Assembly (NCBI GenBank): GCA_018970255.1
Contig: JAGWWS010000020.1
Span: 1 to 56,112 of the forward strand
Origin: Verrucomicrobiota bacterium
GTDB taxonomy: Bacteria > Verrucomicrobiota > Verrucomicrobiia > Chthoniobacterales > Terrimicrobiaceae
Reading direction: 5' to 3'
DNA: 56,112 nt
In this document: positions 39,095 to 56,112 of the stretch, piece by piece
Numbering within the stretch: position 1 is the stretch's first letter
How the letters are laid out: each line of letters opens with the position of its first letter
Translations under genes and position numbers: made by a program
The notes under the pieces: model-generated
The model's input: the letters and a program-made list of their open reading frames with translations, nothing else
The model's database searches: none
Told to the model about the DNA's origin: nothing

Positions 39095-41260
<2,166 letters not shown>

Positions 41261-41269
41261 TCACAAATT

Positions 41270-41460
41270 TCCCGCGAAGCAGCCAAGCCGCGAAGGGAAA
41301 TTCGAACCCGTGCTGGTGGGGACCCGGCCGGGAAGCCTACCGCAGGCAGCCCGAAGGGCGAGATGAGCGGAAGCGAACGAGGCAAATGCGCAATATGGAA
41401 TGTGAAATGCGGAATTCCAATCTGCCCGAGGGAGCGCCGTCGTCCCCGACAGCCGAAATA
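41270..41460. repeat. Composite of repeat fragments between thiC and the MazF-like pair
   Basis: This gap holds three repeat pieces. A CCCGCGAAGC...GCCGCGAAG module (41270-41296) recurs at 44018-44044 and, inverted and diverged, at about 42967-42990 and 55225-55250. Bases 41304-41390 match an internal piece of the 360-bp element (53729-53814) at high identity but have no terminal repeats. GCCGTCGTCCCCGACAGC (about 41436-41453) recurs at 46983-47000. The rest, 41461-41587, shows no gene. Confidence 0.7.
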
Positions 41461-48028: not shown

Positions 48029-48217
48029 CCTCCTCACTCCTGCGCGCGCAGCGCGCCGCTCCCAGCTCCACGCTTATCTGCCATGAATAACCCTCACGCA
48101 TCCACCAACCGCTTCGCGGCCTTCCTATCTTCTATCTTCGATCTCCTAACTCCTGCGCGCGCAGCGCGCCCCTCCGCTATTGGCCATCCGCAATCCGCTA
48201 TCGGCCGCCTTGCGGCC
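48029..48217. repeat. Repeat sequence running into the 5' end of the 1830-aa gene
   Basis: ACTCCTGCGCGCGCAGCGCG occurs at 48036-48055 (before the gene) and again at 48149-48168 (inside it); both form GCGCGC/GCA/GCGCGC hairpins. GGCCGC/CTT/GCGGCC follows at 48203-48217. The ATG at 48083 lies in the middle, so the first 45 codons are part of the repeat field. Confidence 0.7.
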
Positions 48218-51200
48218 TTAGCCCTCTTCCTTGTCTTTGCCGCCACGAGCTTTGGGCAAACATTCTACTCCCTTTCCTCGGGAAATTATTCTGAGGGTTT
48301 TGCAGATATGGCGAATTGGACCAACAACTACGCCGCCGGCTCGGGAGCCTCCAACTGGCGGGTCGCAGGCAACGCCACCGGTTCCACTGGCCTCTCGGAC
48401 ACTGCTGTGTTTACAAGCTCAACCTCAGGAGGTGTTCAAAAAGGCACCCAAACCTTGAATTTCCTCGCTACAGGAACAAACTCTGGTGCCACCGATCTCC
48501 TGATGAACTTCTCCGGTCGCATCGCCGGCAATCTTTCCTTCAGCTTTGATAAGGTCGTAAACACTGCCAATGCAAGCCCCCGCACCTCGGACCTCAAAAT
48601 CCAATACAGCACCAACAACGGCACTTCATTTACTGATTTGTCTCCATACACAATTCCGCGGATCTCAAATAACAGCACAGCAGAGTCTGGCAGCCGAGAT
48701 GTTGCTTTGCCCTCGGCATTGAACGGCCAGTCCCAAGTCGTAATCAGATTTTTCTTCTGGAATAATGGTCAAACCGGCGGCTCCGGCAACAGACCTAAAT
48801 GGGCAATCGACAATGTCGCCGTCACCTCCACCTCCGCTGCTCCCTCCTCCCAAGCCACCAGCTTCGGTTCCTCGGGCATCACATCCAGCAATGCCACCAT
48901 CAGCTGGGTGCGAGGAAACGGTGATGCCGGCGTGCTCGTCGTCGCACGCTCCGGCGGTGCGGTGAACGCCGATCCCACGGACAACACAAACTACACGGCC
49001 AGCGCCACCTTCGGGAGCGGCACACAGATTGGCACCGGCAACTGGGTCGTCTACAAAGGCACAGGAACTTCCGTAAATGTCACCGGCCTTTCGCCAAGCA
49101 CCGCCTATCACTTCGCCATCTACGAATACAATTCCACGGGCACGACGCACAACATGACCGAACTCACCGGCAGTATCACCACCTCTGCCGGGCTGTCTGC
49201 TCCCACCTTATCTTCCCCCACAGTCACCAGCATCACCACCACCACCGCCACACTCGGAGCCACAGTCGCCAGCGATGGCGGCGCCTCCCTCTCTGCGCGC
49301 GGCACTGTCTGGGGCACCACGGCGAGCCCCACTGGAAACTCTCTGGCCGAGGGCGGCACCTCGGTGGCCACCTTCACCCACAGCCGCACCGGTTTGACCG
49401 CCAATACCGCCTACTTCTACCGCGGCTATGCGACGAATTCCCAAGGCACCGCCTACAGTGCCGATGGCACCTTCACCACCCTCCCGCTCCCGCCCACGGT
49501 CGGCACCGGCTCCGCCGCTGGCGAAAACGGCTTCACTGCGAACTGGTCGCATCCCACCATGGGCAGCGCCGCCTACACCTACACCGTGGAAGTGGATGAC
49601 GATATCAACTTCGGCAGCATCAACGCCACCGTCTCCAGCATTTCTTCCTCCAGCACCAGCCAAGCCATCAACGGCCTCTCTCCCAGCACGACCTACTACT
49701 ACCGCATCAAGTCGGTAAACGCCCAAGGCGACTCGACATGGTCCGCCACCAGCGCCGGCATTTCCACCACCGCCGCCGCCTCGCTCATCGCAGGCTGGGA
49801 TTTCCAGACAACTGCGACCGGGGGAACGGCTGTAGTGGCCGCAACAAGCACTCCCACCTTATTTGTCGCAAATTTTGGTTCCGGAACGCTTTTTTTAAAT
49901 GGAACCAATGGTTCTTCCTCATGGTCCCAAGCATCAGAACTGAGTGGATTTTCCGGAACAAATAACAACACGGATGGAACAAGTTTCTCGACAACAACGA
50001 CCTCGCCCGCCGCCCTAGCGCTTTTGGGAGGATCTGGAACAACGAACTCGGCAAACGGGAAAAGCATAGTTTTTCGTTTCAGCATGCGGACTTATGAGTC
50101 TCTAAGTGTAAGCTACTCAACTCAAAAAACATCAACAGGATTTGACTCGCATCTTTGGGAATATAGTTCGGATGGATCTAGCTGGACTACGGCGGAGACC
50201 ATAGGATCCATTCCATCGAGTTTTGGAGCCAAAACCTTGGCTTCCATTTCCGCTCTCAATGGCGCGCAGGATGCCTACTTGCGTGTCACATTTAGTGGAT
50301 CCACTGGGTCGAATCAAAACAACCGCCTCGACAACATTCAAATCAAAGGTGTTCCCAGACCAACAATCCAGACCTCCGGCACCCCCGCCGCCTTGACCAC
50401 CACCTACGGCACGGCCTCCTCGAACACCACATTCACCGTCAACGGCACCTTCATGACCGCAGGCATCCTCGTCACCCCGCCCTCCGGCTTTGAAGTCTCC
50501 ACCGACGGCACCAGCTACTCCTCCACTGTCACCGTCGGCTCCTCCGGCAGCATCGCAAACACCACCGTTTACCTCCGCCTCGCCGCCACCGCCTCCGCAG
50601 GCGCCAAATCCGGCAACATCGTCCTCTCCAGTTCAGGAGCCACCAATGTCAATGTCGCCACCACCGCCAGCACGGTGAACCAGAAAGCCGTCACCATCAC
50701 CGGCCTCTCCGCCTCGAACAAAACCTTCGATGCCAACACCACCGTCTCGGTCACCGGCACACCCACCTACAGCGGACTCGAAAACGGCGAAACCACCGCC
50801 GTCACCGGCTCGGTCTCCTGGGCCTTCCCCGATGCCAATGTGGGCAACAACAAATCCCTCACCCGCACGGGCAGCTACAACGCCCCGAGCGCCAACTACT
50901 CCCTCACCCAGCCCACCCTCACGGCCAACATCACCGCCCGCGCCCTCACCATCACGGCAAACGGCACCTCGAAAGTCTTCGGCAACACCCTCACCGGCGG
51001 CGCCGGCTCCACCGCCTTCACCTCCAGCGGACTCCAAGGCACCGACTCCCTCGCCAGCGTCACCATCGCCTATGGCTCCGGAGCCGCCTCCGGCGACGCC
51101 GCAGGCGCCTACCCCGGCAGCATCACCCCCTCCGCCGCCGTCTTCGGCAGCGGCAGCGCCAGCAACTACAGCATCTCCTATGTCGCCGGCACCCTCACCG

Positions 51201-53575
51201 TCACCCAGGCCACCCAAACCATCTCCTTCAGCGCGCTCTCGGCCGTGACCTACGGCGACGCCGCCTTCGGCCTCAGCGCCACAGCCAGCTCCGGCCTCTC
51301 CGTGAGCTACACCAGCTCAAACACCTCCGTGGCGACCATCAGCGGATCCACCGTCACCATCCTCGCCGCCGGCAGCACCACCATCACCGCCAGCCAAGCC
51401 GGCAATGCCAACTACAGCGCCGCCGCCAATGTGAACCAAACCCTCACGGTGAACACCAAGAGCCTCACCGGCTCCTTCACCGCCAACAACAAAACCTACG
51501 ACGGCACGACCTCGGCCACGGTCGCCACGCGCGCTGTGACAGGCACGGTCGGCGCGGATGTTGTCAACCACACTGGCGGCACCGCCACATTTGCCAATGC
51601 CGCCGTGGGCAACGGAAAAACCGTCACCCTCGCCGGCGCCACCCTCACCGGAGCTGACGCCGCCAACTACTCGCTCTCCTCGGTAAGCACCACGACCGCG
51701 AACATCACCCAAGCCACGCCCACCGTTTCCGTGGCCCCCACCGCCTCGGCGATCACCTACGGCCAGGCGTTGAGCGCCTCCACCATCACCCCGGGCACCT
51801 CGAGCGTCGCAGGCACCTACGCCTTCGCCTCGCCCGCCACCACGCCCGCCGTGGGCACCGCGAGCCAGAGCATCACCTTCACGCCCACCGATAGCGGCAA
51901 CTACACCACCGCCAGCACCAGCGCCAATGTGACGGTGAACCAAGCCGCATTGACGATCACCGGCATCTCGATCGCCAACAAAACCTATGATGGCAACACC
52001 ACGGCGACCATCACCGGCACCGCCGCCTACAGCGGCTTGGTCCTGGGCCAAAGTTTGAGCGTCACCGGCACTGGCTCCGCCACCTTCGGCAACGCCACGG
52101 TGGGCAGCAACAAACCAGTCACGGTAACCGGCTACACCGCGCCAAACGGCAACTACTCGATCACCCAGCCCACCGGCCTCACCGGCAACATCACCGCCGC
52201 CAGCGTCACCGTCACCGCCGGCAACCAAACCAAAGCCTTCGGAGCCAACGATCCCGCGCTCACCTACACCTCCAGCCCGTCGTCCTTGATCGCCGGCAAC
52301 AGCTTCACGGGCGCGCTCAGCCGCGCCGCAGGCGAGGGGGTCGGCACCTACGCGATCTCGCAAGGCACCCTCAGCGCCGGCAGCAACTACACCATCTCGT
52401 TCGTGGGCGCGAACCTCACCATCACCCAAGCCACGCCCTCGATCACAACCGCGCCCACCGCCTCCACCATCACCAGCGGCCAGGCCTTGAGCAACTCCAC
52501 CCTCAGCGGCGGCACCGCCTCCATCGCGGGCTCGTTTGCCTTCACCACGCCAGCGACCGTTCCCTCGCCCGGCATCGCCAGCCAAGGCGTCACCTTCACG
52601 CCCACGGATACCGGGAATTACACCACGCAAACCACGAGTGTGAATGTCGGCGTGCTTTGCACCGCCCCGGTCCTCACACGCGGCAGCGCTCCCACCGGCA
52701 CAGGCTTCACGGTGAATTGGGGAGCCGTCACCGGAGCCGGCAACTACACCGTCATCCACTCCGCCAGCAAAAACATGAGCGATGCGACATCGGCGGATAC
52801 CGACTCGACGAGCCTCGCGCTCACCGTCCCGTCCGGCATCCGCTATGTGCAGGTCCGCGCCAACAACGCCGCCGGCGCCAGCGCAAACTCCACGATGCAA
52901 GTCAATCAACTCCGCTCGATCGCGGCCGGAGCCACCGCCTTCCTCAGCGTGCCCGGCGTGGTGAACGGCGGCAACGCGACCATCGCGGAAATCTTCGGCA
53001 GCAGCAATGAAGCCGGCCTCGCGGCCAATGGCACCCCCTCGAACTCGACAAACATCATCCGCTTGAATGCCGATGGCGACACGCTCGCAGGCATCATTTT
53101 CCGCACTGGAAATTGGACAAGGGGAGACACGGTCGTGAACACGGAAATCATCCCCGCGGGCAAGGCGTTCATGTTGAAAAACAATTCCAGCGAAGTGGAT
53201 CACATCCTGCTGGTCGCCAGTGCGGCGGAGGGCCCTCGCTCCGCAGTGTCCATCAGCGCACCTTCCGGCAAGCACTCACTCGTGACGCCCGCCCGCACCA
53301 AGGCGACAACATTGACCACGCTGGGATTCACCGACGGAGGCAACAACACGGCCACAGGCATCAAACGGGCCACCTTGGCGCGCGATGCGGATGTCATTAT
53401 CATTCAAAACAACTCCGGCCGGTTTATCCCGTATCACTTCGATGGAACGAACTGGAGGAACAATCGCACGATAGTCGATCCCTCGACCATCTCGGTGCCC
53501 TCCGGCGGCGCCTTCTACATTCGCAAAGCGAGCGGCTCGAACTTCAGCGAGTGGACTCCTCCCGCGGAGGATTGA
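48083..53575 (+). CDS. Giant secreted adhesin-like protein with FN3, MBG and YDG modules
   Basis: 1830 residues, the longest gene here. A repeat-derived N-terminus (1-42) precedes a signal peptide core (RLAALALFLVFAATSFGQ). Then come a jelly-roll-like domain (about 60-250), FN3-like units (about 250-565; GLSPSTAYHFAIYEYN, GLSPSTTYYYRIKSVN), a second jelly-roll (565-757), a GFEVSTDGTSY module (about 758-870), a long MBG/YDG array (870-1525; ITGLSASNKTFDANTT, FTANNKTYDGTTSATV, ISIANKTYDGNTTATI, each with NYSLTQP/NYSI ends), a further FN3-like unit, and a C-terminal domain (FIPYHFDGTNWRNN, GGAFYIRKASG) of the kind found at the end of verrucomicrobial TIGR02597-like proteins. Probably a cell-surface or released adhesion/matrix protein. 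Confidence 0.8.
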   Translation: MNNPHASTNRFAAFLSSIFDLLTPARAARPSAIGHPQSAIGRLAALALFLVFAATSFGQTFYSLSSGNYSEGFADMANWTNNYAAGSGASNWRVAGNATGSTGLSDTAVFTSSTSGGVQKGTQTLNFLATGTNSGATDLLMNFSGRIAGNLSFSFDKVVNTANASPRTSDLKIQYSTNNGTSFTDLSPYTIPRISNNSTAESGSRDVALPSALNGQSQVVIRFFFWNNGQTGGSGNRPKWAIDNVAVTSTSAAPSSQATSFGSSGITSSNATISWVRGNGDAGVLVVARSGGAVNADPTDNTNYTASATFGSGTQIGTGNWVVYKGTGTSVNVTGLSPSTAYHFAIYEYNSTGTTHNMTELTGSITTSAGLSAPTLSSPTVTSITTTTATLGATVASDGGASLSARGTVWGTTASPTGNSLAEGGTSVATFTHSRTGLTANTAYFYRGYATNSQGTAYSADGTFTTLPLPPTVGTGSAAGENGFTANWSHPTMGSAAYTYTVEVDDDINFGSINATVSSISSSSTSQAINGLSPSTTYYYRIKSVNAQGDSTWSATSAGISTTAAASLIAGWDFQTTATGGTAVVAATSTPTLFVANFGSGTLFLNGTNGSSSWSQASELSGFSGTNNNTDGTSFSTTTTSPAALALLGGSGTTNSANGKSIVFRFSMRTYESLSVSYSTQKTSTGFDSHLWEYSSDGSSWTTAETIGSIPSSFGAKTLASISALNGAQDAYLRVTFSGSTGSNQNNRLDNIQIKGVPRPTIQTSGTPAALTTTYGTASSNTTFTVNGTFMTAGILVTPPSGFEVSTDGTSYSSTVTVGSSGSIANTTVYLRLAATASAGAKSGNIVLSSSGATNVNVATTASTVNQKAVTITGLSASNKTFDANTTVSVTGTPTYSGLENGETTAVTGSVSWAFPDANVGNNKSLTRTGSYNAPSANYSLTQPTLTANITARALTITANGTSKVFGNTLTGGAGSTAFTSSGLQGTDSLASVTIAYGSGAASGDAAGAYPGSITPSAAVFGSGSASNYSISYVAGTLTVTQATQTISFSALSAVTYGDAAFGLSATASSGLSVSYTSSNTSVATISGSTVTILAAGSTTITASQAGNANYSAAANVNQTLTVNTKSLTGSFTANNKTYDGTTSATVATRAVTGTVGADVVNHTGGTATFANAAVGNGKTVTLAGATLTGADAANYSLSSVSTTTANITQATPTVSVAPTASAITYGQALSASTITPGTSSVAGTYAFASPATTPAVGTASQSITFTPTDSGNYTTASTSANVTVNQAALTITGISIANKTYDGNTTATITGTAAYSGLVLGQSLSVTGTGSATFGNATVGSNKPVTVTGYTAPNGNYSITQPTGLTGNITAASVTVTAGNQTKAFGANDPALTYTSSPSSLIAGNSFTGALSRAAGEGVGTYAISQGTLSAGSNYTISFVGANLTITQATPSITTAPTASTITSGQALSNSTLSGGTASIAGSFAFTTPATVPSPGIASQGVTFTPTDTGNYTTQTTSVNVGVLCTAPVLTRGSAPTGTGFTVNWGAVTGAGNYTVIHSASKNMSDATSADTDSTSLALTVPSGIRYVQVRANNAAGASANSTMQVNQLRSIAAGATAFLSVPGVVNGGNATIAEIFGSSNEAGLAANGTPSNSTNIIRLNADGDTLAGIIFRTGNWTRGDTVVNTEIIPAGKAFMLKNNSSEVDHILLVASAAEGPRSAVSISAPSGKHSLVTPARTKATTLTTLGFTDGGNNTATGIKRATLARDADVIIIQNNSGRFIPYHFDGTNWRNNRTIVDPSTISVPSGGAFYIRKASGSNFSEWTPPAED

Positions 53576-53684
53576 GTGCCTTGCGAAACATTTCCCCTTG
53601 GTAGCAAACCGCCCGAAGAGTGCGGTTGTTGTGAGAAGGGCGGGGGTCGGTGAGGACCTCCGCCCGACTCCTGAAGAGGATTTC

Positions 53685-54053
53685 CTCTCACGGAGGCACG
53701 GCGGCACGGAGGTTTTTTTTGGAAATGCGAACCCGTGCTGGTGGGGGCCGGCCGGGAAGCCTGCCGCAGGCAGCCCGAAGGGCGAGACGAGAGGGAGTGA
53801 GCGAGGCAAATGCGAAATGGGGAACGGGTGCCGCGGAGCGGCTGTGGCGGGTGGCGAGTAAACGGGTGGCGGGGGGGGTGGAGCGCGGCTGCGATTCGCT
53901 TTGCGGATCAGCCGGGGGAAAAACGGAACCCCTGCAAGCACGCTTGCGAGGGTTTCGATTTTTCCCGGCAAATCCCGGCACACCGGGATCAGCCACGCTT
54001 CCTGGGACTCGGGCTTTTCTTCCTCTCTCCGTGTCTTGGCGCCTTTGTGAGAG
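53685..54053. mobile_element. MITE-like element, copy 1 (369 bp)
   Basis: Imperfect terminal inverted repeats of about 27 bases: left 53685-53711 (CTCTCACGGAGGC...CACGGAG) and right 54027-54053, with about 20 of 27 positions pairing. It is flanked by the perfect direct repeat ATTTC (53680-53684 and 54054-54058), as expected of a target-site duplication. Inside are several short hairpins, e.g. GCCTG/CCG/CAGGC and GCCGC/GGA/GCGGC. No coding frame is kept between copies, so it would be non-autonomous. No transposase is in the window. Bases 53576-53679 before it show no gene. Confidence 0.8.
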
Positions 54054-54114
54054 ATTTCAGCTCTTTCCAGCCACCCGCCACGGCCTCATTGAAAAACACC
54101 CGGGCGGGGGCGTC

Positions 54115-54342
54115 TCACTTGCAGGTGGAAAAAGCCGCGTCGAGCTTGGAGAGCAGCGCCAGGCCCTTTTTCGTCGAGCCACGCGCCGCCATGGCACGGA
54201 AGCGGGATTCCGCGTCGAACTCCGCGATGCTTATGGTCGCAAGCTCCTCGAAGAGCTTGTTGACGCTGATCTCGCGGTGCTTGGCGAGCTGGCGGATGCG
54301 GGAGTGTTTGTCCTCTGGAAGACGGATTGTCAGGGTGCTCAT
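54115..54342 (-). CDS. Ribbon-helix-helix antitoxin (VapB/CopG-like)
   Basis: 75 residues. MSTLTIRLPEDKHSRIRQLAKHREISVNKLFEE is a ribbon-helix-helix DNA-binding domain; the C-terminal part (RFRAMAARGSTKKGLALLSKLD) is the usual toxin-binding tail. Its ATG overlaps the toxin stop as ATGA, and it follows the toxin, the reverse of the most common order. Dimers probably bind the palindromes upstream of the toxin gene. Confidence 0.85.
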   Translation of the reverse strand: MSTLTIRLPEDKHSRIRQLAKHREISVNKLFEELATISIAEFDAESRFRAMAARGSTKKGLALLSKLDAAFSTCK

Positions 54343-54776
54343 AATTTGAATGCGGTTTGGCTGAATTGTTTCGGTGTCAGAATCCGGGTTTCGGGAAAGT
54401 GCAAGTCACCGCCCGCCATGTCGCGCGTGTTGTTGGTGATGATGGCATCGGCCGCTCCCGCCACCGCGAGTTCGATCAGGTGGTTGTCAGCCTCGTCCGG
54501 CAGGTTCGGCCGCCAAAGGTAATAAACCCTCACCCATTCGCAGGTGGAGAGGAAGGCCTCAAGCAGCGCAAGCCTGTCCTTGGTCGTCAGCGGACATTTT
54601 CTCATCAAGTCGGCCCGGCCGAGCACAGCCTCGTATTCGTTGAACAGTTTCACTCCCAGAACAGGTTGTGCCTCCCGTTTCAAACAGCGGCGGATCACCT
54701 CGCGATTGCTCCCGCCGCCCTTGCTCAGGAAGGCTCCGGCCAGCACATTCGTATCGACCACCACCCGGGGGATCAT
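54339..54776 (-). CDS. PIN-domain toxin (VapC-like)
   Basis: 145 residues. PIN nuclease acidic residues are present: VVVDTNVLAGAF (first Asp), LFNEYEAVL (Glu), DEADNHLIELA (Asp pair) and IITNNTRDM (last Asp). This subgroup is often annotated as a PIN-family toxin of a toxin-antitoxin system and cuts RNA. The ATG (54776) has no ribosome site, and a promoter-like sequence directly upstream suggests a leaderless mRNA. Starts 27 bases from a double palindrome. Confidence 0.88.
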   Translation of the reverse strand: MIPRVVVDTNVLAGAFLSKGGGSNREVIRRCLKREAQPVLGVKLFNEYEAVLGRADLMRKCPLTTKDRLALLEAFLSTCEWVRVYYLWRPNLPDEADNHLIELAVAGAADAIITNNTRDMAGGDLHFPETRILTPKQFSQTAFKL

Positions 54777-54856: not shown

Positions 54857-55213
54857 CTCTCACGGCGGCACGGAGGTGTTTTGGGGAAATGCGAACCCGT
54901 GCTGGTGGGGGCCGGCCGGGTAGCCTGCCGCAGGCAGCTCGAGGGCGAGACGAGAGGGAGCGAACGAGGTAAATGCGAAATGGGGAACGGGTGCCGTGGA
55001 GCGGCTGTGGCGGGTGGCGAGTAAACGGGTGGCAGGGGTTTTGGATCGGGGCTGCGATTCGCTTTGCGGATCGGCCGGGGAAAAACGGAACCTCTGCAAG
55101 CGGGCTTGCGAGGGTCTCGATTTTTCCCGGCGAATGCCGGCAGGCCGGGATCAGCCACGCTTCCCGGGACTCGGGCTTTTCTTTCTCTCCGTGTCTTGGC
55201 GCCTCTGTGAGAG
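54857..55213. mobile_element. MITE-like element, copy 2 (357 bp)
   Basis: Same orientation and content as copy 1 with scattered substitutions and an 8-base deletion in the left terminal repeat. Right end CTCTCCGTGTCTTGG...GTGAGAG is intact. No matching direct repeat flanks it, so it is either older or arose by recombination. Lies directly upstream of the toxin operon promoter. Confidence 0.75.
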
Positions 55214-55758: not shown

Positions 55759-56112
55759 TTCTCACGGAGGCACGGCGGCACGGAGGTATTTTATGGAAAT
55801 GCGAACCTTCGCGGCTTGGTGGGGGCCAGCCGGGTAGCCTGCCGAAGGCAGCCCAAGGGCGAGACGAGAGGCAGCGAGCGAGGCAAATTCGTAATGGGGA
55901 ACGGGTGCCGTGGAGCGGCTGTGGCGGGTGGCGAGTAAACGGGTGGCAGGGGGTTTTGGATCGCGGCTGCGATTCGCTTTGCGGATCAGCCGGGGGAAAA
56001 ACGGAACCTCTGCAAGCGGGCTTGCGAGGGTCTCGATTTTTCCCGGCGAATGCCGGCAGGCCGGGATCAGCCACGCTTCCCGGGACTCGGGCTTTTCTTT
56101 CTCTCCGTGTCT
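55759..56112. mobile_element. MITE-like element, copy 3 (runs off the window)
   Basis: Third copy in the same orientation, closest to copy 2 in sequence (shared GCAAGCGGGCTTGC and CCGGCGAATGCCGG). Left end at about 55759; the window ends inside the right terminal repeat (CTCTCCGTGTCT). It starts 18 bases after the stop of the small gene. Confidence 0.75.

Follow-up and report, generated by a model that had tools for sequence, protein, structure and literature searches.

In the REPIN/RAYT system, the gene for the HUH-type REP transposase (RAYT) lies between two inverted REPs, an arrangement that the gene-bearing cassettes described below share. The elements reported here were found in a 56,112-bp window (the whole stretch of DNA analyzed) from a verrucomicrobial genome. 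Compared with the account in PMC3116915, they resemble that system in having short dispersed ends, which occur as singlets and as inverted doublets with a hairpin-forming spacer, and in that each type of gene has its own type of end. They differ in that the associated gene encodes a predicted PD-(D/E)XK nuclease instead of an HUH transposase, the ends are 8-9-bp tandem iterations and not REP palindromes, and the local RAYT loci bear other ends. The MITEs of bacterial insertion sequences are alike in size, inverted ends, and absence of an evident coding frame; unlike them, the window family has neither a consistent target duplication nor a transposase inside the same ends. The GxxExxY cassettes (TIGR04256 / PF13366) carry the same 27-bp ends in the same genome, whereas the window element lacks the gene and has a composite, hairpin-rich interior. 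Units built around PF05635 genes likewise have inverted iterated 8-bp ends, but their protein is unrelated and their repeat units are mostly different.

The window element spans 53685-54053 and is a real, hairpin-rich unit of 369 bp, as the preliminary description had proposed. Its left end (53685-53711, plus strand) consists of CTCTCAC followed by iterated 8-bp CACGGMGG units and has no mismatch to the end pattern derived for the whole genus, while the inverted right end (54027-54053, minus strand) has three. These termini are imperfect inverted repeats, identical at 20 of 27 ungapped positions; across 55,743 window positions, equally complementary termini at the element's span occur only once, at 53685 itself. 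A local-alignment test speaks against the inverted ends, with the inverted partner of copy 1 narrowly exceeding 60 shuffles (13.0 vs 12.5) and that of copy 2 failing to beat them in the same test. Between the ends lies a hairpin-rich, composite interior (53712-54026). When folded as RNA, the element is clearly more stable than its shuffles (z -5.3) and less clearly so as DNA (z -2.0); the ends pair with each other in either fold. A coding element was rejected: the open frames, read from six-frame stop counts, differ from copy to copy, and the indels between copies are of 1, 4 and 8 bp. The element has no match in Rfam at gathering scores, where the only hit in the window is a TPP riboswitch elsewhere, or among the phages and plasmids searched.

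Two further copies lie nearby on the plus strand, as previously noted, with pairwise identities among the three of 92.7, 92.8 and 95.3%. Copy 2 (54857-55213, 357 bp) has termini that match at 15 of 27 inverted positions; its right end (55187-55213, minus strand) has two mismatches to the end pattern, and its left end is shorter by exactly one 8-bp unit, as would fit an end made of iterated units. Copy 3 (55759-56112) is truncated where the contig, and with it the window, ends. All full copies fall inside 2.5 kb; they have common edges at their ends, and the DNA between them differs. Copies 1 and 2 are separated by a small gene (54115-54342) with a HicB-like match just under the Pfam cut-off and by a PIN_3 gene (54339-54776), and copies 2 and 3 by DNA with a small open reading frame that has no Pfam match. 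Directly upstream of the element, positions 48083-53575 encode an 1830-residue protein with YDG, MBG and fn3 domains.

Searches beyond the contig separated the interior from the ends. BLAST recovered no further full-length copy in the rest of the genome or in 57 relatives; a partial copy (element positions 2-189) sits at the end of contig C41 of the same genome. Half of the genomes (29/58, comprising this one and the relatives) match the element somewhere at E <= 0.001. Matches fall mostly at element positions ~35-140 (~53719-53824 in the window), a part that recurs without ends in related genomes, and the ends match separately. The interior is thus built from dispersed modules, to which the ends do not belong. 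Element positions 37-140 also occur alone within the window, at 41296-41400 (plus strand), between thiC with its TPP riboswitch and the downstream genes. In related genomes, the module is dispersed and in places lies in close tandem.

The ends themselves recur throughout the genus. A 27-bp pattern, CTCTCACGGAGNCACNNNGNCACGGAG, searched with up to three mismatches, gave 107 matches in 14 of 16 genus genomes, compared with none in the same 16 genomes for the reversed pattern. In the window, it recognizes copy 1 at both ends, copy 2 at the right and copy 3 at the left. With at most two mismatches it is found in 19 of 58 genomes, namely 14/16 within the genus and 5/42 outside. When 100 distinct ends were read with their flanks, from loci fetched for several reasons, the same kind of end was found in front of a GxxExxY gene, the window interior, a GGGGTCAGTCCC-edged repeat or a GTAGCAACGGCAGTCCTCTGCC repeat. 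In G003 and G015, the last of these is present as inverted pairs, 280 and 241 bp long, respectively. As in the REPIN/RAYT system, inverted end doublets are present: the window copies are one case, and the 3-kb Methylacidiphilales contig L208, which has a GxxExxY gene, holds five palindromic doublets of 67-70 bp that are very similar to REPINs in shape. Yet most dispersed ends examined are solo, and all 15 dispersed ends tested in relatives lacked an inward partner. Genus genomes without the 442-bp cassette described below still carry ends, and the density of extra ends (per Mb) is not significantly higher where the cassette is present (p 0.096).

The gene found inside matching ends is a GxxExxY nuclease gene. 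In the element's own genome, a 17-bp form of the end pattern identified an inverted pair on contig C60 that encloses a GxxExxY-family gene. This cassette measures 442 bp end to end and holds one gene inside the same 27-bp ends in inverted orientation; the ends of the window element are of this type. Cassettes of 442 bp end to end also occur in G007, G008 and G013, and match coordinates give the same length in G003, G005 and the verrucomicrobial locus L203; that of the KSB1 locus L204 measures 465 bp. The GxxExxY family is present in 44 of 58 genomes, often in multiple copies.

The link between GxxExxY genes and inverted iterated ends was general among those examined. The 250 bp upstream of each gene were compared with the reverse complement of the 300 bp downstream, a score of at least 17 being taken as a pass. 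In the relatives, where near-full-length genes were used and partial matches left out (108 found, 106 tested), 96/106 GxxExxY genes passed, compared with 3/95 neighboring open reading frames of the same loci. Among the best 80 loci listed for GTDB genomes, 62 of 76 tested genes passed, compared with 12 of 150 neighbors. An earlier form of the test, which missed cassettes whose open reading frame runs through the right end, gave 75/102 vs 4/64 neighbors in the relatives and 56/74 in the GTDB set (best 80 of the list). Pairs with swapped partners passed in 28 of 530 cases (relatives) and 79 of 380 (GTDB, best 80 of the list); the latter control is unclean because end types recur, and the neighboring genes are the better control. 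A pass reflects score only, and the arms of at least two GTDB passes (L275, L279) are unlike iterated ends. The sets also contain one gene twice (L067/L097), and two GTDB loci look like the same records as two of the relatives (L064/L267, L100/L243). Owing to such duplicates and to the composition of the sets, Fisher values calculated on them are not true probabilities. Among the best 80 loci listed, those with arms include representatives of Verrucomicrobia, a KSB1 bacterium, Geobacter, Acidobacteria, Nostoc, Flavobacterium, Sphingomonas and a Methanosarcinales archaeon.

The arms are iterated, and their sequence follows the protein. At a strict threshold, a period of 8 was detected upstream of 10 and downstream of 7 of 102 genes and a period of 9 upstream of 21 and downstream of 25, compared with 0/64 control flanks at either period. 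The units vary by locus and include CACGGAG, CGCAAAG, ACAGAAT, CAGGAAA, CGCAGAT, CGCGAAT and others. More closely related GxxExxY proteins have more similar ends (r 0.29, n=131); with near-identical proteins removed, the correlation is 0.28 (n=123), and the highest of 1000 permutations reached 0.15. Such a correlation is predicted by joint function as well as by joint inheritance.

A compact nuclease is predicted from the modeled structure of the protein. The AlphaFold model (pLDDT 95, pTM 0.88) gave as its best Foldseek match in the PDB 4ic1 (SSO0001; E 4e-4, TM 0.54), which we take to be a Cas4, followed by LHK-Exo (E 2e-3) and lambda exonuclease (E ~0.01); two chains only passed E 0.001. 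Residues invariant or nearly so in 21 sequences include E23, D63, E73, K75, Q87 and Y91, which fit a RecB/Cas4-type signature. On this modeling, GxxExxY is predicted to be a RecB/Cas4/lambda-exonuclease-type PD-(D/E)XK nuclease, and it is likely to be active. A sequence search of the PDB with the protein gave no match, and a search for defense systems returned only weak matches to Cas4 and RT-associated PDDEXK proteins (E 0.003-0.008). The C60 protein has no match in phages and matches in 8 of 72,556 plasmid records. We know of no assigned function for GxxExxY (PDDEXK_3) proteins. In the literature, a GxxExxY-family gene adjoins a CRISPR-type RT (PMC8934634), the family has an entry in the gene table of an algal virus (PMC12085832), and its Pfam is expanded in Arctic algae (PMC9756366). 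The term PDDEXK_3 had no match in the open-access literature, and one match to the end sequences is a primer. The open-access literature searched, including passages of PMC10969869, contains no description of a link between GxxExxY genes and inverted ends.

Comparison of related genomes bears on whether the cassettes move. At the 3' end of a gene read as aconitase-like (acn-like), a cassette is present in five of ten genomes (G000, G003, G005, G008 and G013) and absent from the others (G007, G010, G011, G012 and G015); the remaining six genus genomes gave no clear match there. One of the empty genomes, G007, has a cassette ~1.5 kb beyond the site. The filled sites have a common left flank, and the right flanks compared are unlike or poorly conserved, so that the case is one of presence and absence and not of a clean empty site. 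Similar cassettes frequently occupy one and the same site: of 48 such pairs compared in relatives, 29 have one or both flanks in common and 19 have neither; 11 of these 19 involve only two loci, L121 (the G007 copy) or L091. No orthologous site was found for the window element.

Target duplication is a property on which the element departs from its first interpretation. ATTTC does flank copy 1 on both sides (53680-53684 and 54054-54058), as reported, but copy 2 has flanks GAGAAGGG and AATCAAGT and lacks a duplication. Among 127 GxxExxY cassettes, flank matches of at least 4 bp were found at four (5.5 expected) and of at least 5 bp at one (1.8 expected). Since these counts are at chance level, ATTTC at copy 1 is chance or an exception, and the target duplication at copy 1 does not generalize. 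Movement of a classical MITE by a DDE transposase, with duplication of 5 bp at the target, would account for the inverted ends and for the ATTTC pair of copy 1. The flanks of copy 2 and the chance-level counts at the cassettes speak against it, as does the gene inside the same ends, which encodes a nuclease and not a known transposase. Such a MITE is rejected as the rule and is the least probable of the readings weighed here. The earlier label of MITE-like holds for the small size, the non-autonomous character, the inverted ends, the lack of an evident coding frame and the local copies, but not for a transposase with target duplication.

It is also conceivable that there is no mobile unit at all, and that a mosaic of dispersed repeats with chance edges came to be present three times through local duplication and gene conversion. 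This would suit the interior modules found alone elsewhere, the confinement of full copies to 2.5 kb and the missing duplication at copy 2, and ATTTC may itself be chance, given that a 5-bp flank match at the spacing of copy 1 occurs at 95 of 55,733 window positions (0.17%). We nevertheless consider a mosaic unlikely: the copies share their edges at the ends with different DNA intervening, and the ends recur across the genus with unrelated interiors. Still less likely is that RAYT spreads both the ends and the element, with GxxExxY as a passenger. RAYT-family genes are present in 17/19 genomes, solo ends look like REP singlets, and one repeat family links a CTCTCACGG end to another edge ~140-150 bp away (by reading) that resembles the GGGGTCAGTCCC end of local RAYT genes. 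One arm of the RAYT locus L294 starts with ATCTCACGGAGGGCA, which is similar by eye. However, BLAST of 14 RAYT loci gave no match to the window element or to an idealized end, the loci with clear arms bear GGGGTCAGT ends instead, and the window element, by reading, has no GGGGTCAGTCCC-type edge. RAYT as mobilizer of the window element is unsupported at these 14 loci; the related CTCTCACGG/GGGGTCAGTCCC repeat family, with its RAYT-type edge, may be moved by a RAYT. The RAYT genes of the genus at L287, L288 and L291 are bounded by inverted ends of the GGGGTCAGT type, and in one non-coding repeat an edge of this type is combined with a CTCTCACGG end. Finally, a system based on the four-helix-bundle protein (PF05635, 23S rRNA intervening protein) might own the ends. 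An HMM identified 19 such genes in 30 loci (L034 and L175-L200 among them), of which 14 have inverted iterated ends, three with CGCGGAG-like units; swapped partners passed in 20 of 190 pairs, and a first test before the HMM gave 6/16. Their units are mostly of other types (AGTTTTC, GTCGGAA, CCAGGAG), and the genes found with the exact 27-bp end are GxxExxY genes; we consider this reading highly improbable. An iterated repeat like the ends of a four-helix gene on contig C46 also occurs in the window: GAAATTTGAGATTTCAAATTTGAGATTTGAGA (40461-40492) lies inside the thiC open frame (39095-41251, minus strand), within the radical SAM domain.

The explanation we favor, at roughly even probability, is that the three copies are non-autonomous satellites of a GxxExxY end system that would be analogous to REPIN/RAYT. 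With similar, middling confidence, we regard the iterated 27-bp end as the constant part of the family and the 442-bp GxxExxY cassette as its gene-bearing member. The missing partner of the window element is probably not a classical transposase. The most economical mechanism would be one in which the GxxExxY nuclease drives the spread. The nuclease would recognize iterated ends, both on its own cassette and on satellites like the window element, and would cut or nick there. Host repair would then seat copies elsewhere, which would fit the lack of a regular target duplication. As a guess, the hairpins might serve to juxtapose the two ends when the DNA is single-stranded.

It may thus be the GxxExxY nuclease, and not an ordinary transposase, that spreads such DNA. 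More tentatively, and with a probability we place well short of even, GxxExxY cassettes could be among the smallest self-spreading units. Such a unit would comprise ~440 bp, one Cas4-like nuclease of ~125 residues and iterated 8-9-bp ends that codiverge with the protein; it would be present across many phyla of bacteria and in at least one archaeal genome, move without target duplication, and yield non-coding satellites and REPIN-like doublets. As the end sequence follows the protein, GxxExxY and its ends make a testable recognition system. For repeats in environmental genomes of the CTCCGTG, CTTTGCG and CTCTGTG kind, the nuclease is also a candidate partner. Should it indeed move them, DNA would be spreading by a route distinct from those of the DDE, HUH and recombinase enzymes.
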